DNA of 64,000 nucleotides from Bacteroidota bacterium. GTDB taxonomy: Bacteria > Bacteroidota > Bacteroidia > AKYH767-A > OLB10. A program made the position numbers and the translations under genes. Below, in pieces: positions 44,703-64,000 of the stretch. Below the pieces are notes generated by a model, which saw nothing but the letters and a program-made list of their open reading frames with translations, was not told where the DNA came from and searched no databases. The stretch covers positions 38,812-102,811 of the forward strand of contig JAHEYP010000007.1 in NCBI GenBank assembly GCA_023251535.1. The letters run 5' to 3'. Position 1 is the first letter of the stretch. Each line of letters opens with the position of its first letter.

Positions 44703-45461
44703 ATGAAAACCAGAACCGATTTTTTTCTAAAAAGCGTCATTGCTGTACTAATCTTATTGATTATGCTACTGCTAATGAGCTCATGCAGCAAAAATGTACT
44801 ATACACCCACAACAGTGGCAGTGGTAGTAATGCAGCAGCTGCCGTAAAAGTGGATGAAGGAAAGGAGAGCAAGATTTTACAACCCGACGATAAAATTACC
44901 ATCAGTGTATGGGAGCACGACGAACTAAGTATCGGTTCGGTGCATACCGTATATAGTGTAGCTGAAGAATCAGGTAAATGGGTAATGTTAGATGCTGAAG
45001 GAAATGTAACACTACCACAAATTGGTGTTATTAAACTCGGTGGATTAACAATTGCAGAAGCATCGCAACAAATCAAAAAAGAATATTCGAAAAATATCCA
45101 GAACCCGATTGTTACTATTAAAGTATTGAACAATCAAGTAACCGTTTTAGGAGAAGTTCAACGTCCTGGTATTTATGTTTTCAGCTCAGACAATATTCGA
45201 TTAACAGATGTATTAGGAAAGTCATCGGGATTAACCGACTACGCTAAAACAAAGCAAATTAAAATTATTAGAGGAAAAGAATCAATTAAAATTGATTTAA
45301 CAAATATAGCGTTCAACGAAACGCGTGTCCTACCCGGAGATGTAATTTATATCCCGCCAACAGGAGGTAAAAAATTCGATAGAATAGCTTCTAAGCTAAT
45401 ACCGATTGCCAGCTTACTAACTGCACTAGCTCTAGTGTATAATGTTTCACAAAATAATTGA
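44703..45461 (+). CDS. Polysaccharide export lipoprotein (Wza family)
   Basis: A 252-residue outer-membrane polysaccharide export protein. Lipobox MSSC (about 25-28). The Poly_export domain starts near residue 58 (LQPDDKITISVWEHDELS, VTLPQIGVIKLGGLTIAEAS). A SLBB domain follows (VTVLGEVQRPGIYVF, RGKESIKIDL, VLPGDVIYIPP). A C-terminal hydrophobic helix (about 225-248) would form the Wza-like outer-membrane helical barrel. It is first in the operon and overlaps the next frame by a few bases. Confidence 0.93.
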   Translation: MKTRTDFFLKSVIAVLILLIMLLLMSSCSKNVLYTHNSGSGSNAAAAVKVDEGKESKILQPDDKITISVWEHDELSIGSVHTVYSVAEESGKWVMLDAEGNVTLPQIGVIKLGGLTIAEASQQIKKEYSKNIQNPIVTIKVLNNQVTVLGEVQRPGIYVFSSDNIRLTDVLGKSSGLTDYAKTKQIKIIRGKESIKIDLTNIAFNETRVLPGDVIYIPPTGGKKFDRIASKLIPIASLLTALALVYNVSQNN

Positions 45462-45463
45462 TT

Positions 45464-47767
45464 ATGCGCACCCCCGGAAGTATAGCTCATTTACTTTATC
45501 CACTTAAGAAACGATGGTACATAGTAGTCATATGTATCGCAATTTCATGTGTGATTGCCACTCGCTATTTGTATATGGCGACACCTGAATACCAGGCAGT
45601 GGCAACATTAAAAATTGAAGACTCTCAGCAAGGAATGGCGAACAGTAATTTGTATCGCGACTTTGATGTCTTTAAAGGAAATGCAAAAGTTCAAACAGAA
45701 GTGGAAGTGTTAAAGTCACGTTCGTTGTTTGAAAAAGCATTAGATCGTTTAGATTTTTATGTAGAGTATTATCAAGTAAGCGAACTTAAAACAGAAGAAA
45801 AATATCACGAAGCACCTTTTAGAGTTGACTTCTCAATAACAGATAGTTCATTCGTAAAGCAACAATATAAATTTCATTATCTCGGGGGAGAGAAATTTTC
45901 TGTTGTTTATGATTTTCATGGAACATCAATTGAGAAAGAAGGAGAATTCGGGAAACAGATTTGCGATAGAGGAGTTTGTATCACAGTAAATAAAGAGCCA
46001 AACATCATCAAATATAAAACAACCGCGTCGCTTGATAAAAACTGGGAGTTTGTTGTTTACTCAAAAAATGCATTAGCAGCGAAATTGCAAAACAAAGATT
46101 ATCTTGTTAAAGCACTCGACAAAGATGTAAATATCATTAAAGTATATTATACGCATCCGGTTGCTGAAAAAGCATCGAAGTTAGTTAACGCTGTAGCGGA
46201 AGCATACATCAACCAAAGCATTGTTGATAAACAAGATTTAGCAGGTAACACTGTCGACTTCATCAACAACCAATTGGCGACGGTAGGTGCTGAACTCGAT
46301 AATGCACGTGATGCGATAAAATCATACAGAATAAAAAATGAAATTGTAAATATTTCACAAGAAACAGAAGCAACGTATAAAACACTAGGGCAGCTAGAAA
46401 TCCAGAAAGTGGATATCAACATGCAACTGGCAACATTAGAAAAGCTTAGTGATTATTTACGTCATAACCGAGAGATTAAATTTACAGGTCCTGATTTAGG
46501 ATCAATTCAAGATGGGTTGTTTACCGACGCCGTTACTCGATTAAATACAAAAATCAGAGAACGCGACGAAACCATAAAGAAATACACCGAAGAAAGCGAT
46601 AAAGTAAAAAATATTGATGTTGATATCACACAACAAAAAGCGTTCTTAATTGAAAGCGTAAACAATACTCGACGTAAATTATTAGCGCGTCAAGATGAGT
46701 TATTATTAGCGATTGATGATGAAAAAGCAACATTCAACGGCTTACCTGAAAAGGAAAGTACACTTCAAGAATTAAATCGAAATTATTTCTTATACGAGAA
46801 AATTTACAACTTCTTAATTGAAAAGAGAACAGAAGCCTTAATTACTCGTCAAGTAGATGTTTCATTCAATCGTGTATTGGAATCAGCTGTTGTACCTGAA
46901 GCACAAGTAGCACCTCGTAGAGAAGTTGTACTAGGAATTGCAGCATTCATCGGATTGATCATGGGAGTAATTTTAGCCTATGCTCGTCATTATGCTAAAC
47001 CAAGAGTCAACACTCCAGAAGATATTACTTACAATTCAACGATACCGGTAATCGGACATATCGAAAAAATGTCGAAAGGACAACCGGCATACAAAAACTT
47101 TACAGCACTCACTACCCGAATACTGATGAACCAACCGCAGAATAAGTCGATGGTAGTAACGGTGACGAGTACGCTAAAAGGAGAAGGTAAATCATTTGTT
47201 GCTGCGCAATTAGCGAGAACACTGGCAGCGCAAGACAAAAAGGTAATCCTTGTTGACTTAAACACTTATGCACCTCGAATGGCCGAATGGTTTGACGTTC
47301 GCGGCATTGAAGGAATGAAAGATGTTTACATGCAACAATCATCATTACAGAACGTTATTCAAATCACGAATATTCCTCATCTAGATGTAATAACTGCCGG
47401 CAATGGAGAACAACCAATAGGGCATTTAATTGCTACATCACGAACAAAAGATATTATTGACGAATTGCGTTTACATTATGATGCAGTAATTGTTGATACA
47501 CCTGAAGTAGGAGAATATATCGACGCCATTCCGTTTATGAAATGGAGCGACTTAAATCTCTACGTTGTAAAAGCAGACTCTGATCGTGATCAATTAATTG
47601 CGAATGCAGAAATGGTGAAAGAAGAATACCGTTTAGAAGAAGTGCATTTCGTAATTAATGCGATGAAAGAAAAAAGAAACCATACTGGATTCTTGAGTCC
47701 GAAGAAAAGTAAATCAATCAAATCAAAACAGAACGCGCCACAGCTCCAGAATTTATTCATGTGGTAA
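45464..47767 (+). CDS. Wzc-like polysaccharide chain-length ATPase lacking a tyrosine tail
   Basis: About 767 residues. Wzz-type N-terminal membrane helix (about 19-38) and periplasmic domain with long coiled coils (about 250-440), a second membrane helix (about 485-505), then a cytoplasmic ATPase. Walker A (STLKGEGKS) is at about 569-577, Walker A' reads ILVDLNTYAP instead of the usual D-x-D, and Walker B is AVIVDTPEVG. The C-terminus (SKQNAPQLQNLFMW) has no Tyr cluster, so autophosphorylation of the classical BY-kinase type is unlikely. It controls length and export of the glycan with the Wza protein. The ATG at 45464 is preferred over a TTG at 45458. Confidence 0.9.
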   Translation: MRTPGSIAHLLYPLKKRWYIVVICIAISCVIATRYLYMATPEYQAVATLKIEDSQQGMANSNLYRDFDVFKGNAKVQTEVEVLKSRSLFEKALDRLDFYVEYYQVSELKTEEKYHEAPFRVDFSITDSSFVKQQYKFHYLGGEKFSVVYDFHGTSIEKEGEFGKQICDRGVCITVNKEPNIIKYKTTASLDKNWEFVVYSKNALAAKLQNKDYLVKALDKDVNIIKVYYTHPVAEKASKLVNAVAEAYINQSIVDKQDLAGNTVDFINNQLATVGAELDNARDAIKSYRIKNEIVNISQETEATYKTLGQLEIQKVDINMQLATLEKLSDYLRHNREIKFTGPDLGSIQDGLFTDAVTRLNTKIRERDETIKKYTEESDKVKNIDVDITQQKAFLIESVNNTRRKLLARQDELLLAIDDEKATFNGLPEKESTLQELNRNYFLYEKIYNFLIEKRTEALITRQVDVSFNRVLESAVVPEAQVAPRREVVLGIAAFIGLIMGVILAYARHYAKPRVNTPEDITYNSTIPVIGHIEKMSKGQPAYKNFTALTTRILMNQPQNKSMVVTVTSTLKGEGKSFVAAQLARTLAAQDKKVILVDLNTYAPRMAEWFDVRGIEGMKDVYMQQSSLQNVIQITNIPHLDVITAGNGEQPIGHLIATSRTKDIIDELRLHYDAVIVDTPEVGEYIDAIPFMKWSDLNLYVVKADSDRDQLIANAEMVKEEYRLEEVHFVINAMKEKRNHTGFLSPKKSKSIKSKQNAPQLQNLFMW

Positions 47768-47773
47768 AAGTAT

Positions 47774-49036
47774 ATGCAACTGAGTTTATCATTCCCTAAG
47801 AACATTTTCCGTAATACCACACTGTTGGTTTATGGTGATCAGGCTGTTGTTAGTGGGTTTAGCTTTTTATCGAGTGTAGTACTTGCGAGATTCCTCGGAG
47901 TGGATGGCTTTGGTATCTATAGCGTGGCCTGGTTAGGCGTACTAATTGCGAGTAGCATAAATCAACCATTGATTATTGCTCCTATGCAAACGCTTAGTGG
48001 TAAAAAGTCGCCGGAAGAACAAAACATTTATTTACAAGCCCTCGTCTTCAAGCAATTATTATTTGCTGCTGCTATGGGATTTCTATCTTTCCTTTCTGTA
48101 CTCTTTATGGAGTATATTCTAAAGGATTGGAAAGTAGATTCGATTATATTGGCATTCCCATTAGCAGTATTTACCTTTTTACTGCAAGACTTCTTCCGAA
48201 GGTATTTCTTTGTAATCGGGAAACCACATAAAGCCATCCTTATCGACTTTGTTGCATATGGTGGTGTATTAATGAGCGCATTTACAATTCACTTTGTGCA
48301 AGAAATAGATGCGCAATTTGTACTCTTATTAACTGCAGTATTCTTCCTCTATGCCAGCCTCATCGGTATTTGGTCGATTCCTGAATTGAAGTACAATTGG
48401 CAAAGTATAAAAGAAGTAATACTAGAACATTGGGATTTCAGCAAATGGCTTACGGCTACTGCTTTATTACAATGGTTCTCGGGAAATCTCTTCATTATTG
48501 CAGCAGGAGCGATATTAGGCCCTGTAGCAGTAGGAGCAACCCGTATGGCACAAAATATTGTAGGAGTAACACACGTATTATTCTTAGCAATGGAAAACAT
48601 CATTCCAACACGTGCTGCGAACCATCAACGTATTGCGGGAAATCATGGAATGTTTAAATACTTATGGAAGTTTACCCTACAAATGGGGTTAATTACATTT
48701 ACGTTACTTGCATTGATAGCCATCTTCTCTGGAAATATTATTGAATTGTGTTATGGCAAAGCATTTATGGAATATCGTCACATTTTAATAGGCTTCTGTG
48801 CATTATATGTGATTGTATTTTTAGGCTATCCGCTTCGTTACGCTATCCGCACAATGGAGAAAACGCACTTGATCTTTGTGAGCTTTGTAGCGAGCGCTAT
48901 CTTTAGCATAATAAGTGCATATCCAATTATCAAAACCTTCGGGCTGAATGGAGTTGTTGCCGGATTAATGATCACCCAGCTGATCACATTGTTTATTTAC
49001 TTGTTTAATATTCGCAAGGAAATCAAGCACTTATAA
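47774..49036 (+). CDS. Oligosaccharide flippase (Wzx/MATE-like)
   Basis: A 420-residue integral membrane protein with about 12 hydrophobic segments, as in the MOP superfamily. It begins with TTLLVYGDQAVVSGFSFLSS, a typical first helix, and ends with LNGVVAGLMITQLITLFIYL. It flips undecaprenol-linked repeat units across the inner membrane. It is 6 bases downstream of the Wzc-like gene. Confidence 0.88.
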   Translation: MQLSLSFPKNIFRNTTLLVYGDQAVVSGFSFLSSVVLARFLGVDGFGIYSVAWLGVLIASSINQPLIIAPMQTLSGKKSPEEQNIYLQALVFKQLLFAAAMGFLSFLSVLFMEYILKDWKVDSIILAFPLAVFTFLLQDFFRRYFFVIGKPHKAILIDFVAYGGVLMSAFTIHFVQEIDAQFVLLLTAVFFLYASLIGIWSIPELKYNWQSIKEVILEHWDFSKWLTATALLQWFSGNLFIIAAGAILGPVAVGATRMAQNIVGVTHVLFLAMENIIPTRAANHQRIAGNHGMFKYLWKFTLQMGLITFTLLALIAIFSGNIIELCYGKAFMEYRHILIGFCALYVIVFLGYPLRYAIRTMEKTHLIFVSFVASAIFSIISAYPIIKTFGLNGVVAGLMITQLITLFIYLFNIRKEIKHL

Positions 49037-49095: not shown

Positions 49096-50220
49096 ATGAA
49101 ACCTAAAATCATACACCTAGTACTCGGTAAGGCTAACCCTAACCGTATGAATGGCGTTAATAAAGTAGCGCATAATCATGCGGTGCATATGCATAAATTG
49201 GGATATGATGTAGAAATCTGGGGTATTACAAAAACTCCGGATGGTGAAGTGATAGAAAGAGAATTACCCACACGTTTATTTCGTCAACAACCTTTTTACC
49301 GCGATTTAGATCCGAAATTGTTGTACGCATTATCGAAGACTCCAAAGAATACTATATTTCATATTCACGGCGCTTTTATTCCCGACTTCTACAAAATGTC
49401 GAGAATGTTAGTCGATATGAAAAGAAAGTATGTTTATACCCCTCATGGTGCGTTCAATAAAATTGCGCTCGAGAAAAATAAATGGGTAAAGAAAATTTAC
49501 ATACAACGATATGAAAAGACAATGCTTAAAGATGCATATAAAGTGCATTTTTTAGGCCAGAGTGAATTTGATCATATTGACAAGATAATTAAACTCTCCA
49601 ATAAAGTTATTATTCCTAACGGACAAAGTTTCGAAGAACTAGAATTCGACTATCATAAAATGAATAGAAAGAATATTCCTGTTTTCGGATTTTGCGGACG
49701 CCTTGATTTATACTATAAAGGATTAGATTTATTAGTAGATGGATTTGCCGCTTATGTGAAGAAAGGCGGACAAGGAGAAATGTGGATGATTGGCGACGGT
49801 GAAGATAGAACCACATTAGAAGAACAAGTAAAAACACACGGTATACAAGACAGAATAAACTTCATGGGTGCGCGATACGGAAAAGATAAATTGAACCGGA
49901 TAGCAAACATGGATGTATTTTGTCACCCAAGTAGATCAGAAGGATCGCCAACTGCTGTTCTTGAAGCAGCTGCTTTAGGAAGACCACTTATGGTAAGCAC
50001 TGCTACGAACGTAGGACAGATTGTGGAGGCAAACGGGTGTGGAATTCATCTACACCAAACTACTGCTAAAACGATTGAAAAAGCATGTTTCGATTTTCAA
50101 AAACTTTTTGAAAGTCATCAATCAGAAAGCATGGGATCGTGTGCAAGAAAATTGGTAGAGAAAGAATTCAACTGGTTTAGTATTTCGAACCGATTAATTC
50201 AGATTTACGAAGGAAAATAA
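49096..50220 (+). CDS. Glycosyltransferase family 4
   Basis: A 374-residue GT-B enzyme. The N-terminal acceptor domain contains NGVNKVAHNHAVHMHKLGY and YTPHGAFNKIALEKNKWVKK. The C-terminal donor domain contains FGFCGRLDLYYKGLDLLVDG and the E-x7-E region HPSRSEGSPTAVLEAAALG. It adds one sugar to the growing repeat unit; donor and acceptor are unknown. Confidence 0.9.
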   Translation: MKPKIIHLVLGKANPNRMNGVNKVAHNHAVHMHKLGYDVEIWGITKTPDGEVIERELPTRLFRQQPFYRDLDPKLLYALSKTPKNTIFHIHGAFIPDFYKMSRMLVDMKRKYVYTPHGAFNKIALEKNKWVKKIYIQRYEKTMLKDAYKVHFLGQSEFDHIDKIIKLSNKVIIPNGQSFEELEFDYHKMNRKNIPVFGFCGRLDLYYKGLDLLVDGFAAYVKKGGQGEMWMIGDGEDRTTLEEQVKTHGIQDRINFMGARYGKDKLNRIANMDVFCHPSRSEGSPTAVLEAAALGRPLMVSTATNVGQIVEANGCGIHLHQTTAKTIEKACFDFQKLFESHQSESMGSCARKLVEKEFNWFSISNRLIQIYEGK

Positions 50221-50226
50221 TTCGAT

Positions 50227-51531
50227 ATGTTGAAGAAACAACCAATACCGTTTAATTTAAAGCATGTGCACCAATTTATGGTGTTGATGTTGGTATTGAG
50301 AATAGTGAGTTACTTCATGCTAAGTGAAGAATTATTTATTACCCAAGCAATCAAAGCCGGTCTTCGAACATTATTAACGGCAATCGTTTTATTACATGCT
50401 CTAGCTCAAGTAGTGAAAAAAGAGAAAGTATCAATAGCTGTAACACACGGTATGCCCTTATTGCTTTATTGTACCTATATTTTATTTGGAGCAGCATCAT
50501 TATTATGGACTAGCTCGTTTTCGCAATCATTAATGCAATGGTTAATGGATTTGGAGACGCTAGTATTTACGTTCTTCTACATGAGGATGTTTTTGCACTA
50601 TAAGCTCAACGACACGACGAATGAATTAAAGATCGGAAAATTACTTTCTGGAGCGGTATTTATAATAGCCATCGGCTTCTTTAGTGGAATGATGATTGAT
50701 CCTGATCATTATTACCGTTTAACGCACGGAGGAGAAGTCTCGAGGTTAGGTGGATTTATTATTAATCCAAATGAATTAGGAATGCTTTTAGTAGTAGGCA
50801 TTGCTGGATTTTATACTGAACTCCGAAAAGACGAAAAAATTCGAATATCGATACTTCTGAAGATAGCGTTCTTGACCTATTTGCTAATGCTTACTGGATC
50901 TCGATCATCGTTCATCGGATTTTTATTGGTATCAGGAATTTATGCATTAACGCAGCCATCTAAATTATTCAAGAGTATTTTATTTATTGCAATGCTATTT
51001 GTTGTTCCAATAGTCGGAATGCAACTCTTCGTAACACAAAGTAATGCTGAAGAAATTGGAAGTTTAACCGGACGTTTACCATTCTGGAAAGACTTATTCA
51101 CTTATAATTTCCCGAAAGAACCATGGTTTGGATATGGGTACATGCGCATTGATTATACCGATAAGTTTGAGTCGATTAATGCATATGCAGGAGCGATGAC
51201 ACATAACACTTTTTTACAAGTGCTATTAGGCTTAGGCTTAGTTGGGTTGCTTATTGTTGTTCTTCAATTAGCATCCTTCATTTATGCTATTATTTCTTCG
51301 AAAATTAGCGCTCACCGACTTGCCGGATTTTTAATTCTTATTCCATTGATTATTAACTCACTTACGGAGTTTGGAATCTTTGGCGAGACCAATTACGGTA
51401 TATTATTTTATTTAATTCTTAATTTTTCTTTCACTTTAGAACCGAATGCTTGCAACTATCGTATAACTCGGAGCACTAACCATTATGAATCGGAATCCGA
51501 TATACTTAACAGATCTGTTGCTGCTGCGTGA
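50227..51531 (+). CDS. O-antigen ligase/Wzy-type polymerase
   Basis: A 434-residue membrane protein with 10-12 segments. The periplasmic loop and flanks carry GRLPFWKDLFTYNFPKEPWF, GYGYMRIDY and AMTHNTFLQVLLGLGLVG, which match the conserved R-W and H-N regions of the Wzy_C/O-antigen ligase family. Inside this locus it is the likely polymerase. The last 47 bases overlap the start of the kinase-like gene. Confidence 0.87.
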   Translation: MLKKQPIPFNLKHVHQFMVLMLVLRIVSYFMLSEELFITQAIKAGLRTLLTAIVLLHALAQVVKKEKVSIAVTHGMPLLLYCTYILFGAASLLWTSSFSQSLMQWLMDLETLVFTFFYMRMFLHYKLNDTTNELKIGKLLSGAVFIIAIGFFSGMMIDPDHYYRLTHGGEVSRLGGFIINPNELGMLLVVGIAGFYTELRKDEKIRISILLKIAFLTYLLMLTGSRSSFIGFLLVSGIYALTQPSKLFKSILFIAMLFVVPIVGMQLFVTQSNAEEIGSLTGRLPFWKDLFTYNFPKEPWFGYGYMRIDYTDKFESINAYAGAMTHNTFLQVLLGLGLVGLLIVVLQLASFIYAIISSKISAHRLAGFLILIPLIINSLTEFGIFGETNYGILFYLILNFSFTLEPNACNYRITRSTNHYESESDILNRSVAAA

Positions 51532-52846
51532 TTTATTTGCCAAGCAGAATACGCTACTTATAATTGATCCTTTACATCGCTTGATTGGCGAGAGTACAGA
51601 GGATGTTGTAGTGCTGGAAAGAAAGCCGGAATCAGGATTTGACAATGCCTTTGTAGCAGAATTAAATGACATTCATCAACTATCGTTTTATTTGAATAAT
51701 AATAATGCAATTTCGTTTTCTGAAATGGCGTATATTAATAATCCGGATGGTACCATACGTTGGTTTTTCCCTCTTACAAAAGGGGTTCCCGGACATCTGT
51801 CATTATACAACTCGGTAAGCCTTAAAGCAAAGATTTATAAATGGGTTTCAACGGTGGCTGGAAGGTTGGGTCAGACCCGCTTATTGGCTTCGGGAATTCT
51901 TCGAATGCAACAAAATCTACTCGATCAAGTAAAAACGGTTAATGATATTACTCCGGAAGAAGATATTTCTTTCTTTACTGGAACCAGAGGAGCTACAAGA
52001 AAGGTAGTGATGGAAATTCATAACAAGGAAACAACAGTTGCCTTTGTAAAAATTCCAGTAACCCCTGTTTCGGAGGAGTTAGTTAAAACAGAGACCGAGA
52101 TGTTGAAAGAGCTAAATAAATACGATTTTACGACCCTTAGTTTACCTAAGGTGTCGAAGAAAATTGATGGCCATGCGCGCTTAAGTAATGTTAAGCCGGG
52201 AATTACAATACCTGCCGATAGAATCACTGCAATCCATGTAAAAGCCTTAGCCGAACTGTATGCTTTGAGCCACGAGCGAAAAGCTATTTCCGATTCAACA
52301 GCATGGGGAACTATTTCAGCAAATATGGAATGGTTAAAACGTGATTTATTATTTACCAATGGTCTTGATAGTAAGTCGACCGGTAATCTAATTAAATTAT
52401 TAAGAAAACTATACACTACATTCTCTGCAGGTGAATCAATTTCACTTTCAGTATCACATGGTGATTTTACACCATGGAATATGTATTGCGATGAGCAGCG
52501 TTTATATGTTTACGATTGGGAAATGTCGAGAAACGGGATACCTATGTTTTTCGATTTATTTCATTTTACCTATCAGAGTACTATCCTTCAGCAAAGAAAA
52601 GATTATTCAACAGTAAAAAGTTCCATCAACCTATGGAAACAACAACCATTGGTGCAGCAAATGCTCCAAAAGTACAAGATAAACCTTGCCTTACACGAAA
52701 AGCTTTACCTTCTGTTCACCGTAAGTTATTATTTGAGGCAATACCTAAACGAGAAGGAATTACTTCAGCAAAGTCATTGGATGATCAAAGCCTGGACAGA
52801 AGCGATTACAGATCAATTGGAAACAGTGAGCAATACCAGCCACTAA
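51485..52846 (+). CDS. APH-fold phosphotransferase in polysaccharide locus
   Basis: A 453-residue protein. The C-terminal two thirds have the aminoglycoside phosphotransferase/choline kinase fold. The catalytic loop is HGDFTPWN (H325, D327, N332) and the metal-binding aspartate is D344 in YDWEMSR. Residues 1-130 are a separate alpha/beta region (DLLLLRDLFAKQNTLLIIDP, WFFPLTKG) with no family I know. It probably phosphorylates a sugar, lipid carrier or small molecule for the glycan; a resistance role is unlikely in this setting. The gene overlaps the polymerase by 47 bases, and its TAA shares a base with the next ATG. Confidence 0.8.
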   Translation: MNRNPIYLTDLLLLRDLFAKQNTLLIIDPLHRLIGESTEDVVVLERKPESGFDNAFVAELNDIHQLSFYLNNNNAISFSEMAYINNPDGTIRWFFPLTKGVPGHLSLYNSVSLKAKIYKWVSTVAGRLGQTRLLASGILRMQQNLLDQVKTVNDITPEEDISFFTGTRGATRKVVMEIHNKETTVAFVKIPVTPVSEELVKTETEMLKELNKYDFTTLSLPKVSKKIDGHARLSNVKPGITIPADRITAIHVKALAELYALSHERKAISDSTAWGTISANMEWLKRDLLFTNGLDSKSTGNLIKLLRKLYTTFSAGESISLSVSHGDFTPWNMYCDEQRLYVYDWEMSRNGIPMFFDLFHFTYQSTILQQRKDYSTVKSSINLWKQQPLVQQMLQKYKINLALHEKLYLLFTVSYYLRQYLNEKELLQQSHWMIKAWTEAITDQLETVSNTSH

Positions 52847-54150
52847 TGAATTCTCAGCGTAAAATATTTATCAATTACTTTTTTCATGCTATAGCAGATT
52901 TGCGCTATGCGTATTTGAAGTTTACGCATGCTTCAACAAACGATATTCCTGAAACTTCAGACATTGATTTGTTAATCGATAAACATGAATTAAATTCTTA
53001 CTTAGACTGTATTCGCAAGGGAGATAATATCGAAAAAGTTAATCTTGACAAGAAGTCCTTCGTGACCTATGTAAGTGTTTATTTTACCGATGGTAGTTAC
53101 TTAGAACTTGATTTAATTAATCGCTTCGATAGGAAGGGCGTAATTTACTTAGATTCTGAATCCATTTTAAATAAGGCCGTAAAGAAAGATCATCTTAAGT
53201 TAGCTTCTGAATCGCATAATTTTGAGTATATCTTGTTGTTTCACCTAGTAAACAACTCGGATGTTGCAGATCGATATAGAAAATATTATTCATCATTGAG
53301 TGTTTCTGATAGATCAGAAATATTTGCTTATATCTGTAATAAATACGATTTGTCGATTAACACTTTAGACGAATTATACGAGAAGAAGCAACGAGGCCCT
53401 AAAAAAGTTCTACGTTATGTTTTTGCCCAGCCTATCAATAAAGGCGTTTCTAAGGGCATTCATAAAATAAGATATATTGTTGATGCTATTCGCGATGCAA
53501 TTAACAGCAAAGGAATAACTGTAACTTTTAGTGGTGTTGATGGAGCAGGGAAGTCTACTATTCTTGAAAACGTTAGAGTGACTCTTCAAAAGAAATACCG
53601 TCAAAAAACGGTAGTGTTACGCCACCGACCATCATTGTTGCCTATTTTGAGTTCCATTAAGCATGGTAAAAAGAATGCCGAGAAGCTTACTTCTCAAAAT
53701 TTACCTCGCCAAGGAAACAATAAAAGCACTATAAGCTCATTAATTCGCTTCCTCTACTACTATGTCGATTATATCATAGGTCAGTACTATGTTTATTTCA
53801 GATACACACTAAGAGGGTATACGGTACTATATGATCGTTATTATTTCGATTTTATAATTGATTCGAAACGATCTAACATTTCATTGCCTAAGCCGATCTT
53901 AAAATGGTGCTATTACTTTGTATTTAAGCCAAAAGTAAACGTGTTTTTGTACGCTCCACCGGAGATTATCTTAAGCCGTAAGCAGGAAATGTCGTCAAAC
54001 GATATTCAGCAGCTTACAGGTGAATACCGAGAATTATTCGAAGAATTGGGGAAATCGAACAAAAAACAGCGTTATATCTCCATAAATAACACCAATTTGG
54101 AGGAAACTTTATCAGTTGTAATGAAACAGTATGTGAAGGCCTCCGTATAA
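52846..54150 (+). CDS. Nucleotidyltransferase/thymidylate-kinase-like fusion protein
   Basis: A 434-residue two-domain protein. Residues about 1-190 look like a nucleotidyltransferase-fold domain with TSDIDLLID (D39, D41) and YLELDLINRF as the third acidic strand. Residues about 225-434 are a P-loop kinase of thymidylate-kinase type: GVDGAGKST at 230-238, YTVLYDRYYFDFIID (the DR-Y/F motif) and NVFLYAPPEIILSRKQE. An upstream open frame from 52516 lies inside the kinase gene and is not used; the ATG at 52846 overlaps the preceding TAA by one base. Together with the APH-like gene this suggests a glycan- or lipid-linked phosphorylation module; the substrate is unknown. Confidence 0.8.
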   Translation: MNSQRKIFINYFFHAIADLRYAYLKFTHASTNDIPETSDIDLLIDKHELNSYLDCIRKGDNIEKVNLDKKSFVTYVSVYFTDGSYLELDLINRFDRKGVIYLDSESILNKAVKKDHLKLASESHNFEYILLFHLVNNSDVADRYRKYYSSLSVSDRSEIFAYICNKYDLSINTLDELYEKKQRGPKKVLRYVFAQPINKGVSKGIHKIRYIVDAIRDAINSKGITVTFSGVDGAGKSTILENVRVTLQKKYRQKTVVLRHRPSLLPILSSIKHGKKNAEKLTSQNLPRQGNNKSTISSLIRFLYYYVDYIIGQYYVYFRYTLRGYTVLYDRYYFDFIIDSKRSNISLPKPILKWCYYFVFKPKVNVFLYAPPEIILSRKQEMSSNDIQQLTGEYRELFEELGKSNKKQRYISINNTNLEETLSVVMKQYVKASV

Positions 54151-54180: not shown

Positions 54181-54936
54181 ATGGACCGTAAACAAATCAC
54201 CCCTCCAAACATTCATGTTGTTAGTTCGGAATATCAAATTCCGGTAATTGATAAACTTTTAGGCAGAACCACATTAAAGTGGCAATGCGACGATGGTCAC
54301 AGTGAAAAACTTACGGCCAGCCTTCGTTTTACCGACTACGAAGGAAATCCACCTTCTTTCTATAGCTTAACGAAATTACCTTTCGTTGCGAAAACTTATT
54401 TTCAGGCGAAGCGTTCGCCTATCATGTCGAACCCAGTTCCTTTTTTAGTAATGGATGCTATCCGTTACCTCGATGGAATGGTTAAGCCAGGAATGAAAGT
54501 AATGGAACTAGGAGGAGGTAATAGCTCACTTTGGTTTTTAGGCAAAGGCGCAAAAGTAACTACTTACGAACATGATGTTCAATGGGCTCAAATGGTATTC
54601 GAAAATGTTGAGAAAAACCCTAAAAAATACAACGAAGAAAATTTTGATTTAAGAGTGATGCAGGGAACTGCCACATTAAACGATATGATGACTCAGGAAG
54701 ATGGATCATTCGATATCATCTTGATCGATTCAATGAACGAATTTACTCGCCGTAACGATTGTATTCGCGTTGCAATGAAGAAAATTAAACCGGGTGGCTG
54801 GTTAGTACTTGACAATAGCGATAATCCAGTTAACTGGAAAGGAGCTGAACTACTAGAAGGAAAAGAAATGATTCGCTTCTCTGGATTTGGCCCTATGGCA
54901 TTCTTTGTTTGTCAAACTACTTTCTGGAAAATGTAA
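54181..54936 (+). CDS. SAM-dependent methyltransferase
   Basis: A 251-residue class I methyltransferase. Motif I is KVMELGGGNSSLWFLGKGA (about residue 100-118), followed by TTYEHDVQWAQMV (acidic end of strand 2), GSFDIILIDSMNEF (motif IV) and IKPGGWLVLDNSDNP. It probably methylates a sugar or repeat-unit component of the polysaccharide. Its stop is 1 base before the acyltransferase start. Confidence 0.85.
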   Translation: MDRKQITPPNIHVVSSEYQIPVIDKLLGRTTLKWQCDDGHSEKLTASLRFTDYEGNPPSFYSLTKLPFVAKTYFQAKRSPIMSNPVPFLVMDAIRYLDGMVKPGMKVMELGGGNSSLWFLGKGAKVTTYEHDVQWAQMVFENVEKNPKKYNEENFDLRVMQGTATLNDMMTQEDGSFDIILIDSMNEFTRRNDCIRVAMKKIKPGGWLVLDNSDNPVNWKGAELLEGKEMIRFSGFGPMAFFVCQTTFWKM

Positions 54937-54937
54937 T

Positions 54938-55666
54938 ATGCTTAAAGCAGTAATTATATTTCTCGGTAAAAAGAAAAACCCGGCGTTTACGTTGGATGAG
55001 CATGCCTCTACAGGTATGCTCTTTACTTTTTTTGTTGATAAAGCAATTTCTGTTTTGAGAGGTGCCCGTTCAATATTTGCTGGCAAAAGTCCGAATATGC
55101 TTATGCTGGGTAAACGCGTTACCGTTAGTAATTGGAAAACATTTTACTATGGGAAGGGTGTGCAAATCGGAAAAGATGTTAGCATCAATGCTTACGGAGA
55201 GGAAGGGCTAACAATCGGTGATTATTCATGGATTGGACCAATGTCGTTTCTTAAAGTATCATTTTCTTTTAATCAACCAGGAAAATTTATTCGTATCGGC
55301 AGTCATGTCGGTATTGGTGAATATGCTCACTTAGGTGGTGCAGGAGGCTTGGAAATTGGAGATGATTGCATTATTGGCCCATATTTAAGTTGTCACCCCG
55401 AGAATCATCAATTCGTTGATCAACAAGAATTAATTCGATTACAAGGCGTAACTCGTTCCGGTATTAAAATTGGCAAAAACTGCTGGATTGGAGCGAAGGT
55501 TACTATTCTCGACGGAGTTACAATAGGAGAAAATTGCGTGATAGCTGCAGGTGCAGTTGTTACCAAAGACATGCCCGCCAATGCAGTTATTGGAGGTGTT
55601 CCTGCTAAAGTTATTAAAATGCGTGACCACAAAGACATAAAAATGTCGGCTGTTCATGTCGCATAA
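54938..55666 (+). CDS. Hexapeptide-repeat acyltransferase
   Basis: A 242-residue left-handed beta-helix transferase. Hexapeptide repeats run from about 75 to 225 (VQIGKDVSINAYGEEGLTIG, RIGSHVGIGEYAHLGGAGG, IKIGKNCWIGAKVTILDGV). The catalytic region is about residue 145 (SCHPENHQF), and GAVVTKDMPANAVIGGVPAK is typical of the O-acetyltransferase C-terminus. It probably O-acetylates the glycan. The in-frame ATG at 54887 lies within the upstream methyltransferase gene, so 54938 is chosen. Confidence 0.88.
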   Translation: MLKAVIIFLGKKKNPAFTLDEHASTGMLFTFFVDKAISVLRGARSIFAGKSPNMLMLGKRVTVSNWKTFYYGKGVQIGKDVSINAYGEEGLTIGDYSWIGPMSFLKVSFSFNQPGKFIRIGSHVGIGEYAHLGGAGGLEIGDDCIIGPYLSCHPENHQFVDQQELIRLQGVTRSGIKIGKNCWIGAKVTILDGVTIGENCVIAAGAVVTKDMPANAVIGGVPAKVIKMRDHKDIKMSAVHVA

Positions 55667-55677
55667 AATTTAAGAAG

Positions 55678-56940
55678 ATGACTGAATCGAATATTAAATT
55701 TAAGACTGTTTTAGTTAGTGCATACGCGGTTAATCCATATCACGGATCGGAAGATGGGATGGGATGGAATTTTATTAATCAAATTGCACGTTTCAATAAA
55801 GTAATTGCCGTTACGAGAGAAAATACTCGCCCTCATATTGAGAAATATATGCAGGAAAATCCATCGGTGCATTACGCAAATATCAACTTTGTATACTACG
55901 ATCTACCTTATTGGATGAGATTCTGGAAGAAAGGTGGTCGCGGTGCTTTATTGTACTATTACATGTGGCAATATTTTCTTCCTGCCTTTGTGAAACGACA
56001 AAAGTTGGAATTTGATATTGTGCATAATTTAAATTTCCACAACGACTGGACGCCATCACGCTTATGGGTGTTAAGAAAGCCTTTTGTTTGGGGACCTATT
56101 GGACACCATTCTAAAATTCCTAAAGATTATATTTTGCACGTCTACGGATATCGTCAATACTTCACCGAACAGTTGAAGTGGATGACAAAAAAATATTTTT
56201 GGCAAGTTGATCCGTTATTACGTCAAACTGTTAATCATGCCGATACTGTTTTAGCAATGAATTCTTCTGTTGCTAAAGTGCTTCATATTCCTGAAGCAAA
56301 AGTTGTTCGTATGCCTTCGGTAAGTACTGAAGCTCCGGGAGAAAAATTACCTCATATCAGCAACGGAAAATTTACAATTCTTTCTGCAGGACGATTTGTA
56401 CCATTGAAAGGATTCGATATTACTATAAAATCATTTGCTCGATTTAGAGCCCAATTGCCAGTTGTACAACAAGATAAAGTGGAATTGGTTTTAGTTGGAG
56501 ACGGTCCTTATAAAGAACAGTTGGTAAAACTTACTGAAGAATTGTATATTGAAAGGCAAGTTCGATTTATCAAATGGTTAGATCGTGAAGATTATAAACA
56601 ACTTTATGCTAACTCACACGTCTTTCTTTTCCCTTCTCACGAAGGAGCAGGAATGGTAGTTGCTGAAGCGCTTTCTTATGGATTACCTGTTGTTTGTTTT
56701 AATAATGATGGTCCTGGAGAATTCGTTGATGATACATGCGGGATAACGGTTCCGTATAGCCGCTACGATACTAGCATCTCTAAATTCGCAGAAGCATTAA
56801 ATACAATTTATACTGATCCCGCTTATTTCAATAAGTTATCGGAAGGTGCCCTCGAAGCATTCAAAAACCGATTTGATTGGAACTTGAAAGGAGAACATCT
56901 TCGTAATGTTTACAATGAAGTAGCTTCAAGAGCTGTTTAA
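55678..56940 (+). CDS. Glycosyltransferase family 4
   Basis: A 420-residue GT-B enzyme. The acceptor domain begins TVLVSAYAVNPYHGSEDGMG and includes GPIGHHSKIPK. The donor domain includes FTILSAGRFVPLKGFDITIK, LVLVGDGPYKEQL and FPSHEGAGMVVAEALSYGLP (E-x7-E region). It ends one base before the next GT4 start. Sugar specificity is unknown. Confidence 0.91.
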   Translation: MTESNIKFKTVLVSAYAVNPYHGSEDGMGWNFINQIARFNKVIAVTRENTRPHIEKYMQENPSVHYANINFVYYDLPYWMRFWKKGGRGALLYYYMWQYFLPAFVKRQKLEFDIVHNLNFHNDWTPSRLWVLRKPFVWGPIGHHSKIPKDYILHVYGYRQYFTEQLKWMTKKYFWQVDPLLRQTVNHADTVLAMNSSVAKVLHIPEAKVVRMPSVSTEAPGEKLPHISNGKFTILSAGRFVPLKGFDITIKSFARFRAQLPVVQQDKVELVLVGDGPYKEQLVKLTEELYIERQVRFIKWLDREDYKQLYANSHVFLFPSHEGAGMVVAEALSYGLPVVCFNNDGPGEFVDDTCGITVPYSRYDTSISKFAEALNTIYTDPAYFNKLSEGALEAFKNRFDWNLKGEHLRNVYNEVASRAV

Positions 56941-56941
56941 A

Positions 56942-58027
56942 ATGAAACCGAAAATAGTAGCAGTACATTTATTAAACGACTTCAGTGGGAGTCCCATGGT
57001 TTTGTCGCAGGCCTTAAAAGGGTTGCAGAAATCAGGACACGAAGTGGTGATTCATACTGCTGGTGGACGAGAAGGATTTCTTTCTGATATCGATTGCAAG
57101 AAAGAATATTTCAAATACAAATTTTTCGGGAATCCGCTGCTAAGATTAGCAGCGTTCCTTTGCAGTCAATTAGTAGTATTTACTCAGTTACTGAAGTACA
57201 GGAAAGAAAATGTAGTTATCTATGTGAATACACTATTACCATTCGGTGCTGCTTTAGCAGGTAAATGGATGGGCAAAAAGGTGGTTTATCATATTCATGA
57301 AAGTTACATAAAACCGGTAGCCTTAAAAAACTTCTTAAAGGGAGTAGCAGCATATACCGCTGATACTGCAGTTTATGTATCTAACTACTTATGCGAAGCA
57401 GAGAAGATAAAGAACATTAAATATAAGGTGGTTTATAATGCCTTGCCAGATGAATTTGTTTCTAAGGCCGATGCATTTAACTACCACATTCCCAATGCAG
57501 GCTCATTTACTGTATTAATGGTTTGTTCGCTTAAAGAATATAAAGGAATAAATGAATTTGCTGCATTGGCAAAACGCCATCCGAAACTAAGATTCGAAAT
57601 GGTATTGAATGCTGCTAAGGAAGATATTTCTAATTATTTTTCAGAAGGAAAAACACCTTCAAACCTGACATTATTTCCTACGCAAAAAGATCTTGATCCT
57701 TTTTATCGTCGAGCTTCATTATTGTTAAACCTCACGAACCCGCAGTTATGCGTTGAAACATTTGGAATGACCATCTTAGAAGCAATGTGTTATGGAATTC
57801 CCGTAATTGCTCCCCCTGTAGGTGGCCCGGCTGAAATTGTTGATTCAGGAAAAAATGGATTTACCATCGATGTGCGAGAAGAATCAAATTTGGATATAGC
57901 CATCGAAACGCTGTATGCAGATGGTAATATGTTAAGCTCATTCTCCTCGAAAGCAAAGGAAACTTCTTCTCGTTTTAGCACGAGTGATTTGCAAGGAGAA
58001 ATCGTAAAAATCATCTCCTTGATGTAA
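56942..58027 (+). CDS. Glycosyltransferase family 4
   Basis: A 361-residue GT-B enzyme. The N-terminal HLLNDFSGSPMVLSQALKGL is the glycine-rich acceptor loop. The C-terminal domain carries VLMVCSLKEYKGINEF, NLTNPQLCVETFGMTILEAM and PVIAPPVGGPAEIVDSGKNG. It is the last gene before a 287-base gap and a weak hairpin with T tail. Confidence 0.9.
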   Translation: MKPKIVAVHLLNDFSGSPMVLSQALKGLQKSGHEVVIHTAGGREGFLSDIDCKKEYFKYKFFGNPLLRLAAFLCSQLVVFTQLLKYRKENVVIYVNTLLPFGAALAGKWMGKKVVYHIHESYIKPVALKNFLKGVAAYTADTAVYVSNYLCEAEKIKNIKYKVVYNALPDEFVSKADAFNYHIPNAGSFTVLMVCSLKEYKGINEFAALAKRHPKLRFEMVLNAAKEDISNYFSEGKTPSNLTLFPTQKDLDPFYRRASLLLNLTNPQLCVETFGMTILEAMCYGIPVIAPPVGGPAEIVDSGKNGFTIDVREESNLDIAIETLYADGNMLSSFSSKAKETSSRFSTSDLQGEIVKIISLM

Positions 58028-58054: not shown

Positions 58055-58314
58055 CATCTGTTTTCAATTATTACCCTAAAACGTGACAAAAATCCCAATT
58101 TCTTACACATAGTTTTGTAAGATTTTCTGAAAGTTTTGTAATAGGTTACACTCATTTCCCCTCGTAAAGAGCAAAATCGAGTAAAAAGATAAGTGCATTT
58201 TTCGCATTTATTTAAAGAATCTTACAAGCGTTTAAACATTCCCTATTTATTGTAGCGTTTTCAACAGGATTGACGTATCATGTTCATAACCTAAAGACCA
58301 AAATAAGTTCTGTT
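58055..58314 (+). promoter_or_regulatory. Leader region upstream of the DUF1972 glycosyltransferase
   Basis: A 260-base AT-rich gap in an otherwise tightly packed locus. It holds a direct repeat of agttttgtaa (58111-58120 and 58152-58160) and an inverted repeat cttaca/tgtaag (58102-58107 with 58116-58121). No strict TTTG-N19-TAnnTTTG promoter was found. It may hold a second promoter of the locus. Confidence 0.4.
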
Positions 58315-59511
58315 ATGCAAAAGAAGCGTGTCGCTATTATTGGAACAACCGGACTACCGGCAAAGTACGGTGGATTTGAAACCTTAGCACATCATTTAGT
58401 TGATCGTTTAAATCAACGATTCGATCTTACAGTATTTTGTAGCTCTAAATATTTTTCAAAAAAAGGAGTTCGTCGTACGCACTACAACGGCGCTAAGCTC
58501 GAATATCTTCCTTTCAATGCCAACGGATATCAAAGTATTATTTACGATGTAATCTCCATTGTAAAAGCAATGAGAAACAATGATGTTCTTTTGTTGCTTG
58601 GAGTCTCCGGAGCAATATGTTTGCCATTCATTAAAATGTTCTCTAAAATTCCTGTTATCGTTAATATCGACGGACAAGAATGGAAACGTCAAAAATGGAA
58701 TTGGATTGCAAAGAAATTTTTAGGCTTCAGCGAACGCCTGGCAGTGAAATATGCCGATCGCGTTGTGGCGGACAATAAAGTAATTTATGATTATGTAGTT
58801 GATTGCTACGGACAAAATGATGCTTCACTGATCGAGTATGGTTCAGACCATGTTAAGAAAGTTAAATTGAATGACGATGTTATTGCAAAATATCCTTTCC
58901 TAACTGGTAAGTATGCATTCAATGTTTGTCGCATAGAACCTGAAAATAATGTTCATGTATTTCTTGATGCATATGCTCATCGCCCAAATGAAAATTTAGT
59001 AATTGTAGGGCTTTGGAGTCACAATGAATATGGTCGTCAATTGAAAGAACACTTCAGTGAATTTTCAAACTTGCATTTATTAGACCCAATCTATGAGCAA
59101 GAGGATTTAGATATCATTCGCTCAAATGCATCTTTGTATCTACACGGGCACAGTGCGGGTGGAACTAATCCTTCATTGGTCGAAGCGATGGCACTTGGAT
59201 TACCTGTTGTAGCTTTTGATGTTGCTTATAATCGTGAAACAACAGAAAACGTTGCTCGTTTTTTCGATTCAACTTTAACACTTCATTTACAACTCGACCG
59301 ATTAACGGATGAGGAATGTAATTCAATGCGTGTAAAACTCGAAGACATTGCTTCAAAACGTTATACCTGGAGTAGAATAGCAGATTTATACGCTCAATTG
59401 TTTGGCGAAGATCAAAATTCACTAGTTGTAAATCTAACTTCTGAAGCTGCAATGCGTAAAGAAGAAGTAATTAAAATTAAAACTCAAGAAAGAGAAGAGG
59501 CGGCTGCATGA
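58315..59511 (+). CDS. DUF1972 glycosyltransferase (GT4-like, rhamnosyltransferase type)
   Basis: A 398-residue GT-B enzyme. The DUF1972 N-terminus is clear: RVAIIGTTGLPAKYGGFETL, then VNIDGQEWKRQKWNW and ADRVVADNKVIYDY. The donor domain has HGHSAGGTNPSLVEAMALG. Family members add rhamnose or galactose in O-antigen/EPS assembly. The frame opens at a TTG at 58270, but the ATG at 58315 immediately before the conserved start is used. Its stop overlaps the next ATG by 4 bases, linking a glycan gene to a T9SS protein. Confidence 0.88.
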   Translation: MQKKRVAIIGTTGLPAKYGGFETLAHHLVDRLNQRFDLTVFCSSKYFSKKGVRRTHYNGAKLEYLPFNANGYQSIIYDVISIVKAMRNNDVLLLLGVSGAICLPFIKMFSKIPVIVNIDGQEWKRQKWNWIAKKFLGFSERLAVKYADRVVADNKVIYDYVVDCYGQNDASLIEYGSDHVKKVKLNDDVIAKYPFLTGKYAFNVCRIEPENNVHVFLDAYAHRPNENLVIVGLWSHNEYGRQLKEHFSEFSNLHLLDPIYEQEDLDIIRSNASLYLHGHSAGGTNPSLVEAMALGLPVVAFDVAYNRETTENVARFFDSTLTLHLQLDRLTDEECNSMRVKLEDIASKRYTWSRIADLYAQLFGEDQNSLVVNLTSEAAMRKEEVIKIKTQEREEAAA

Positions 59512-62447: not shown

Positions 62448-64000
62448 GAGGCCTGTTACTATATATCGCAATTTTATTGTGTTTGTCAGGATCGCTGTTT
62501 GCACAAGATCCTCATTTTACACAGATCAATCGAATTCCTTCTTTCTATAATCCGGCAGCAGCTGGAAATGGAGTTGAGCATATTCGTTTAACGATGCTTT
62601 ATCGTAACCAATGGGCAAGTGTAACTACTCCTTTTGTTACGCAAGGATTCTTCTTCGATAAACAAGTAGGTAAAGTGGGTCTAGGCGCTAATCTTGTAAA
62701 TAATTCTGCAGGAGAGGCCGGTATTCGTCAGCTTTTACTAAATGGTATTCTTAACTATAGATTTGATTTTGATAAAAATCATTTTACTGCAGGAATGCAA
62801 GTGGGATTAATTCAGAAAAGTTTTGATCCTTCAAAAATGACTTTCGATGACCAGTATCTTCCTGATCAAGGTTATGATCCTTCAAACGCAACAGCTGAGA
62901 CTTTCTCTTATACAAAAGTTACACGTCCCGACTTAGGATTAGGTATGTTCTGGACACATGGAACACCTGGAAAAGATAAAGTCTTGCCTTACGCAGGATT
63001 TTCAGCGCAGCATATTTTGCAACCAAAAGAGACTTTTATTCTAGATCAAAATAGTGTTCCTATTAAACTGAATGCTCAAGCCGGATTAGGAATTCACATA
63101 AATGATGATTTGCAAATTACACCATCAATCTTGTATGTAAAGCAACAGAATTCATCTGAGCTAGTTGCTGGTGCTGTGGTTCGATTACCATTGCAAGAAC
63201 GTAATATGGTTGAGGGTGGAATTTATTATCGTAAAGGCGATGCCATGGCTTTGTATGGCGGATACCAATGGAATAATTTCTTATTGGGTGCATCATACGA
63301 CGTAAATATCAGCGGACTCACAAAAGGCCCGGGAGCGTTTGAACTAACGTTAACGTATATACCAAAAGCAAAAATTAAAAAGCAACCGGAGAAAAACCCA
63401 TCTAAACCTGTGGCTGTAAAGAAACCTGCACCGACTAAAAAGCTGGCAACCGTTTCTAACCCTACTGAAGTGAAGAAAGTGGAAGCGAAAGCGCCTTCTA
63501 AAGTAAGTTCTTCTGAAAATTCGAAGCCTATTGTCAAAACGGAAGCTCCAGCTAAACCGAAGTCAAATGCATCTACAGTAAAAATTACTGCTACTGCTCA
63601 GCCTAAGAAACCGATGCCAGCTGTTGATACTGCTAAAACGATTACTCCTACGGAATCTCCTAAGGTTGTACAACTTCAAACAAAGGGTACTGCGCCAATT
63701 GTAACATCAGCACCTAAGGTGGATTCTATAGCAACTCCTCTAGCAACGCCTAGAAACGCAACACCGATTAAGGAAATTAAATTAAAGCCGGTCGTAATCA
63801 ACAAGAATTCGATTAAGAAACCAACTTCTGAAATTGTAGAACCAACACAATTATCACCAGTGGGTACAACGCCACTTCCAGTAGGAGACTTTGACGAAAT
63901 TGAAATGCTTAATACTAAACCGATCGCTATTGATAAATCATCAATGAAAAAGCCTACGGTTAAAATTAATCCGAATATAAATTCTGATAAAGTTTCTCCT
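62444..64000 (+). CDS. PorP/SprF family T9SS protein with long Lys/Pro-rich tail, partial at right edge
   Basis: The frame is open for 519 codons to the window end. Signal peptide ends at SLFAQ (about 21). Residues about 22-306 match the PorP/SprF barrel: DPHFTQINRIPSFYNPAAAG, YRNQWASVTTPFVTQGFFFD, YAGFSAQHILQPKE and GAFELTLTYIPK. Residues 307-519 and beyond are low-complexity, rich in Lys, Pro, Thr and Ala. The motif KPVVINKNSIKKPT at 448-461 returns as KPIAIDKSSMKKPT at 492-505, a 44-residue spacing. Family members pair with type B cargo and help it through the T9SS; the usual protein ends near the barrel. Confidence 0.9.
   Translation, partial: MRGLLLYIAILLCLSGSLFAQDPHFTQINRIPSFYNPAAAGNGVEHIRLTMLYRNQWASVTTPFVTQGFFFDKQVGKVGLGANLVNNSAGEAGIRQLLLNGILNYRFDFDKNHFTAGMQVGLIQKSFDPSKMTFDDQYLPDQGYDPSNATAETFSYTKVTRPDLGLGMFWTHGTPGKDKVLPYAGFSAQHILQPKETFILDQNSVPIKLNAQAGLGIHINDDLQITPSILYVKQQNSSELVAGAVVRLPLQERNMVEGGIYYRKGDAMALYGGYQWNNFLLGASYDVNISGLTKGPGAFELTLTYIPKAKIKKQPEKNPSKPVAVKKPAPTKKLATVSNPTEVKKVEAKAPSKVSSSENSKPIVKTEAPAKPKSNASTVKITATAQPKKPMPAVDTAKTITPTESPKVVQLQTKGTAPIVTSAPKVDSIATPLATPRNATPIKEIKLKPVVINKNSIKKPTSEIVEPTQLSPVGTTPLPVGDFDEIEMLNTKPIAIDKSSMKKPTVKINPNINSDKVSP

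Follow-up and report, generated by a model that had tools for sequence, protein, structure and literature searches.

What might two adjacent phosphoryl-transfer genes be doing in the middle of a polysaccharide locus of a Bacteroidota bacterium, where one encodes a kinase of the APH fold and the other a fusion of a nucleotidyltransferase (NTase) domain to a P-loop kinase domain of the thymidylate kinase (TMK) fold? The genes lie within a 64,000-nucleotide stretch of contig JAHEYP010000007.1 (positions 38,812 to 102,811 of the forward strand; termed here 'the window'), for which a preliminary description had reported that the two are joined by a TAATG overlap, and had proposed that they form a 'double kinase module'. 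Subsequent analysis confirmed both genes and their overlap (Table 1), and upheld the functional coupling that this term implied, but indicated that the module does not consist of two kinases side by side; instead, as judged by comparison with their relatives, the genes are the split halves of a single three-domain enzyme, with the architecture APH-NTase-TMK. It is tentatively proposed that this enzyme catalyses a step dedicated to exopolysaccharide synthesis of the Wzx/Wzy type, and that it thereby gives a phosphate-linked substituent on the repeat unit.

One enzyme in two genes

Searches of one genome collection identified 252 relatives of the unit, and class- and phylum-wide searches demonstrated that most relatives, including those of other families, carry all three domains in a single protein of 780-925 amino acids. 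A search of 61 relatives with the NTase-TMK protein further revealed homologues with an open frame of 851-902 amino acids that reads through the APH, NTase and TMK domains in turn. Linkage of the APH gene was checked for 83 loci, of which 80 belong to the genome collection and 3 to plasmids: it was fused to NTase-TMK in 49, lay immediately upstream in 16 and nearby in five, and was not seen in 13. Whole-genome searches for ten of those 13 recovered exactly one full-length APH homologue elsewhere in the genome in nine cases. Inspection of seven unlinked cases showed that four represent broken loci, with Wzy-APH at one site and NTase-TMK-acetyltransferase-GT4-GT4 at a second (in two of these four, the whole Wzc-Wzx-GT4-Wzy-APH half was kept together), and that three have an APH gene apart from the polysaccharide genes.

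The co-occurrence of the two families, the lack of which had been named in the preliminary description as a ground for abandoning its proposal, was surveyed across 395 genomes of the class. NTase-TMK was present in 25 of them (20 core, three distant and two partial forms), and the APH family was found in all 25, versus 8 of the 370 genomes that lack NTase-TMK (Fisher p = 6e-33, a value that fused genes and common descent inflate). Every genome in that sample with an unfused NTase-TMK gene carries the APH gene, and these unfused cases are more telling with respect to coupling than is the Fisher value. A hidden NTase-TMK gene close to the APH gene was looked for in the APH-only genomes, and none was found. 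The two partners stay in the same genome whether they are fused, adjacent, nearby or unlinked. In three loci (L202, L203 and L204) a lone member of the APH family adjoins a PorP/SprF homologue and a conserved protein of large size, with NTase-TMK not nearby; this arrangement may be a further remnant of the locus.

A tree of 31 members places seven split forms within the fused forms, an arrangement that needs one or two changes. Because the split forms nest in this manner, the arrangement found in the window looks like the result of a later fission, within a tree whose root is not fixed and alongside more distant split forms that also exist.

Distribution and annotation

The most distant Bacteroidota forms (L087, L088, L091 and L092) retain an APH-like gene in the same locus. 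Beyond that phylum, distant versions of NTase-TMK were identified in polysaccharide loci of Alphaproteobacteria, on plasmids of Leisingera (L195) and Agrobacterium (L196), where the accompanying 'phosphotransferase' matches the APH profile (E-values of 8e-32 and 2.6e-25, respectively) and where rfbABCD adjoins the pair; the Agrobacterium locus also contains a DUF1972 glycosyltransferase.

In the records read for Hymenobacter, Leisingera and Agrobacterium, the NTase-TMK or fused protein is labelled only as a 'hypothetical protein'. No NCBIfam model covers the APH-NTase-TMK architecture, and no description of that architecture, or of a thymidylate-kinase-like protein of polysaccharide loci, was found in the open-access literature. 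Each of the folds is known; their three-domain combination is undescribed in the open-access literature that was searched. Two other origins were considered and rejected: a defence system (PADLOC matched the TMK domain solely through its P-loop, and did not match the APH protein) and a phage origin (no match among 50,697 phage records).

Domains and active sites

The APH protein was assigned to the APH kinase family (PF01636) by its score (24.7 bits, against a curated Pfam cut-off of 23.2) and by its HGDxxxxN motif, DxE motif and ATP-binding lysine. Across 31 core relatives, which is the sample used for all of the residue counts below, K189 is invariant, and E203, H325, D327, N332, D344 and E346 are each conserved in at least 30; the HGDxxxxN motif (HGD at residues 325-327, N332) and D344 that had been noted from the sequence were thus found in place. 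Among the structural matches of the domain model (mean predicted local distance difference test, or pLDDT, of 88) are methylthioribose kinase, aminoglycoside phosphotransferases and LicA (E-values from 9e-7); glucosamine kinase is also one of the small-molecule kinases that the model resembles, and comparison of the APH profile with PDB sequences gave weak or partial matches. While the fold and catalytic motifs are shared with known members such as LicA choline kinase and methylthioribose kinase, the window protein differs from them in being fused or tied to NTase-TMK, and in possessing an extra N-terminal region of approximately 155 residues, which contains a conserved NPDG-x-RW-x-x-P motif (residues 86-95) followed by a conserved helix region. 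A trace of that extension is visible by eye even in the distant APH partners.

The NTase domain displayed no Pfam match above cut-off, and its profile matched no PDB sequence at E-values up to 10. Its model (pLDDT of 96) gave structural matches to Pol-beta-fold nucleotidyltransferases in the PDB, with probabilities up to 1.00, including 4ok0 from H. pylori, viral poly(A) polymerases, LnuA and FKRP. Together with that fold, three catalytic acids, D39 (52960), D41 (52966) and D89 (53110), each present in 31 of 31 members, place the domain among Pol-beta-fold nucleotidyltransferases; the first two had been pointed out previously, and the third is added here. K25 is likewise invariant. A structural survey has grouped viral poly(A) polymerases, FKRP, specialised nucleotidyltransferases and an antibiotic-modifying enzyme into one clade (PMC11646218). 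The domain differs from the known Pol-beta-fold enzymes in having kinases as its partners, and in its sequence-level relationships: no LicD/FKRP family (PF04991) match was found for any of the 31 members at E-values up to 1, and similarity to NTP_transf_5 (PF14907) is confined to the level of a motif, with matches in 4 of the 31 members (best E-value of 0.0021) and a profile comparison that covers 30 columns around the DxD motif at a probability of 18%.

The TMK domain belongs to the thymidylate kinase superfamily (PF02223), as indicated by its score (38.7 bits, against a Pfam cut-off of 27), its P-loop and its DRY motif. Alignment of its profile to that of canonical Tmk with hhalign gave a probability of 98.6, and matches of the profile to PDB sequences were weak or partial. 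G230, D232 and K236 in the P-loop, which had also been recognized in the preliminary description (residues 230-238), are invariant, as are R259, R261, D330, R331, R378, K379 and E381. The domain nevertheless differs from thymidylate kinase itself, both in its position C-terminal to an NTase domain and in its sequence. Its score against the equivalog model for deoxythymidine monophosphate (dTMP) kinase, TIGR00041, is 28.2 bits (27-28 bits for fused relatives), versus a cut-off of 83.25; the canonical REPG motif is replaced by RHRP; and in the canonical F-x-A-x-R motif, the residues of which contact thymine in Tmk structures, the phenylalanine is kept, while the alanine position is occupied by tyrosine or tryptophan, and the arginine position by tyrosine, phenylalanine or leucine. 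The thymine-contacting arginine thus appears to have been lost. Because the TMK motifs are retained but the thymine-contacting positions are changed, the domain likely uses ATP, and its acceptor is probably a compound other than dTMP.

Because the catalytic residues are conserved over 31 diverged relatives, the active-site matches cannot be attributed to chance. The structural predictions likewise did not reveal the loss of catalytic geometry that had been raised as a possible objection: the models are good, and the active sites are kept.

A proposed role and its competitors

The unit most likely decorates the repeat unit, or the donor of that repeat unit, through a phosphate or phosphodiester linkage. 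The enzyme's site of action would be cytoplasmic, and its target would be either the repeat unit in its lipid-linked form or a precursor reserved for that repeat unit. The APH domain would place a phosphate on a hydroxyl group of its acceptor, a sugar or a compound resembling one; the TMK-fold domain, a member of a superfamily that phosphorylates phosphate groups, would extend or recycle the phosphate-bearing intermediate; and the NTase domain would then form a phosphodiester bond, resulting in a repeat unit with a phosphate-linked substituent. Both the order of those steps and the identity of the attached group are guesses.

A decoration of this type is the leading idea because of two published precedents: (i) the pseudomycoidin kinase PsmK phosphorylates a serine (PMC8498205, PMC9266682), and the NTase-like protein PsmN is needed to add one or two hexoses to the resulting phosphate, although a review leaves the role of PsmN as a glycosyltransferase open (PMC9266682); and (ii) NTase-fold enzymes of the LicD/FKRP type transfer polyol phosphates to glycans (PMC11666461, PMC11646218). 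The former system corresponds to the proposal in that a kinase and an NTase-like enzyme act in succession on one hydroxyl (PMC9266682), and differs from it in that PsmK is HPr-kinase-like, the acceptor is a lasso peptide, and a TMK-fold domain is lacking. Several observations weigh against the proposal: the NTase domain has weak structural matches (best E-value of 1.5e-4, TM score of about 0.4), which are general to the Pol-beta fold; by the sequence tests made, the domain falls outside both LicD and NTP_transf_5; and the genes scanned in the window locus included none recognised as a cytidine diphosphate-polyol or choline gene.

If a phosphate-linked decoration is indeed made, the charge and properties expected of these slimes would change. 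Since the enzyme is annotated only as a 'hypothetical protein' in the records read, any prediction of these glycans lacks at least one chemical step. Within a conserved exopolysaccharide locus of Bacteroidota, this phosphate-transfer enzyme of three domains is a stable component, and its fused form offers a single, testable protein.

The main rival to this decoration is the synthesis of a donor by a salvage-type route, in which the APH protein would phosphorylate a free sugar or polyol, the NTase domain would add a nucleotide, and the TMK domain would supply or recycle the nucleotide, so as to provide an activated building block to the neighbouring glycosyltransferases. The resemblance of the APH model to small-molecule kinases (methylthioribose kinase, glucosamine kinase and LicA) is compatible with this route, as is the absence of any sugar-nucleotide synthesis gene among those scanned in the window locus, from OPX to the DUF1972 glycosyltransferase; the three activities in combination could also activate a compound. 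Known sugar nucleotidyltransferases, however, display a different fold (PF00483) from that of the NTase domain, and the pairs of Leisingera and Agrobacterium lie beside a complete, ordinary dTDP-rhamnose set, which indicates that the pair is no substitute for that set, because both coexist in those loci. Donor synthesis is considered unlikely, albeit worthy of serious attention. A more novel chemistry, in which one polypeptide would successively phosphorylate, pyrophosphorylate and nucleotidylate a sugar of the repeat unit, and would thereby introduce pyrophosphate- or nucleotide-type linkages into the exopolysaccharide, is improbable.

Control of chain length in the manner of WbdD, in which a kinase would cap the non-reducing end of the glycan with phosphate and an adjacent methyltransferase would follow, was judged to be decidedly improbable. 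WbdD, which combines a kinase and a methyltransferase, controls the chain length of O9a (PMC3482155), and a methyltransferase gene is similarly found directly 3' of the pair in the window and in three close relatives. That gene, however, is missing from nearly all other loci; WbdD serves an ABC-transporter pathway and possesses neither an NTase nor a TMK domain, whereas the locus in the window is of the Wzx/Wzy type and itself encodes a Wzc-like chain-length protein; and the NTase and TMK domains would be left unexplained. Somewhat more doubtful still is a regulatory device that would modify a protein of the export machine, or make a signal nucleotide, and so control exopolysaccharide output. 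Degenerate NTase-only proteins that persist beside Wzc, in relatives without the rest of the locus, could be accommodated by such a device; the full active sites of all three domains, their constant place among biosynthesis genes, and the closer resemblance of the APH protein to small-molecule than to protein kinases argue against it.

A housekeeping role for the TMK part, as a displaced thymidylate kinase that supplies dTDP, might be suggested by its being the sole PF02223 match in the window's genome; this reading was rejected as highly improbable, given that genomes of the same genus without the module likewise lack a strong Tmk match, that two genomes (G733 and G747) carry canonical Tmk plus the fusion, and that the dTMP kinase score and the aromatic residues at the A-x-R positions speak against it. 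A strong canonical Tmk (PF02223) was found neither in the window's genome (G000) nor in its genus, and is present in the family genomes G008 and G010.

Divergence of the NTase region

The locus and its closest relative (L057) share approximately 91% DNA identity over 20 kilobases. Where the NTase-TMK gene begins, that identity drops from 97% to a minimum of approximately 72%, and it climbs back over the first half of the TMK domain, such that the low-identity stretch (window positions 52860-53880) spans the NTase domain together with the front part of TMK. Synonymous changes are saturated in the NTase part, where nonsynonymous divergence (dN) reaches 0.167, as compared with 0.005-0.022 for neighbouring genes; the TMK part shows a synonymous divergence (dS) of 1.04 and a dN of only 0.006. 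This pattern looks like the replacement of approximately one kilobase by a diverged, recombined allele, in which very strong constraint seems to act on the TMK part, with the NTase part able to vary freely. Speculatively, this may be a hint that the NTase domain sets specificity.

An NTase-only protein is encoded directly behind Wzc in several relatives of the same family (L009/L095, at 1465-2232 in L009; L013; L014; L016/L094; L017; and L096). These relatives have lost APH and TMK and, in the neighbourhoods that were read, the remainder of the locus as well. Those NTase-only proteins that were read have lost their DxD acids or carry them in altered form, and the protein is possibly a relic or a structural partner of Wzc. 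Such a relic is found alone in 5 of the 370 genomes without NTase-TMK, none of which carries the APH family.

The surrounding locus

Judged by its gene content, the window locus is of the Wzx/Wzy exopolysaccharide type, in agreement with its earlier placement in a polysaccharide locus: Wzx, Wzy, Wzc/OPX and glycosyltransferases are present, and a WecA-like initiating transferase (PF00953) was identified at C3:103962-104420, approximately 1.2 kilobases beyond the end of the window. All genes of the locus, from OPX through the DUF1972/Cps2T-like glycosyltransferase, are tightly packed on one strand. The start of the APH open reading frame (ORF) overlaps the 3' end of the wzy-like ORF by 47 bases, and the ATG of NTase-TMK falls within the APH stop codon (c-TAATG-a). 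Wzc, Wzx, Wzy, the acetyltransferase, the glycosyltransferases and OPX were each recovered in 24-31 of 41 loci, with their order retained, and the APH and NTase-TMK unit occupies a constant slot between Wzy and the acetyltransferase in this conserved Bacteroidota locus.

Table 1. Positions in the window of the APH and NTase-TMK genes, their motifs, and the neighbouring genes of the locus
Feature	Position	Strand	Basis or remark
APH-fold kinase gene, 453 amino acids	51485..52846	+	PF01636 above cut-off, structure model matches
N-terminal extension of APH protein, ~residues 1-155	51485..51949	+	alignment
APH ATP-binding lysine K189	52049..52051	+	31/31
APH catalytic loop HGDFTPWN, residues 325-332 (D327, N332)	52457..52480	+	conservation
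APH metal-binding D344 in DWE	52514..52522	+	conservation
TAATG stop/start overlap joining both genes	52844..52848	+	sequence
NTase-TMK gene, 434 amino acids	52846..54150	+	Pfam, homologue searches
Pol-beta-fold NTase domain, residues 1-215	52846..53490	+	model, conservation
TMK-fold P-loop kinase domain, residues 219-434	53500..54147	+	Pfam, hhalign
P-loop GVDGAGKST, residues 230-238	53533..53559	+	conservation
DRY motif, residues 330-332	53833..53841	+	D, R in 31/31
OPX outer-membrane export protein	44703..45461	+	PF02563, synteny
Wzc-like chain-length protein	45458..47767	+	PF02706, PF13807, synteny
Wzx-like flippase	47774..49036	+	profile match, synteny
GT4 glycosyltransferase	49096..50220	+	profile match, synteny
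Wzy-like polymerase	50227..51531	+	PF04932, synteny
Methyltransferase	54181..54936	+	at this position only in close relatives (4 loci)
Hexapeptide acetyltransferase	54887..55666	+	TTG start from ORF list; later start likely
Two GT4 glycosyltransferases	55678..58027	+	profile match, synteny
DUF1972/Cps2T-like glycosyltransferase	58270..59511	+	profile match, synteny

Within the locus, the interval from the last glycosyltransferase to the initiating transferase outside the window also includes, at window positions 59508-64000, a PorP/SprF gene and a gene for a large NHL/PKD protein that bears a CHU_C type IX secretion signal.

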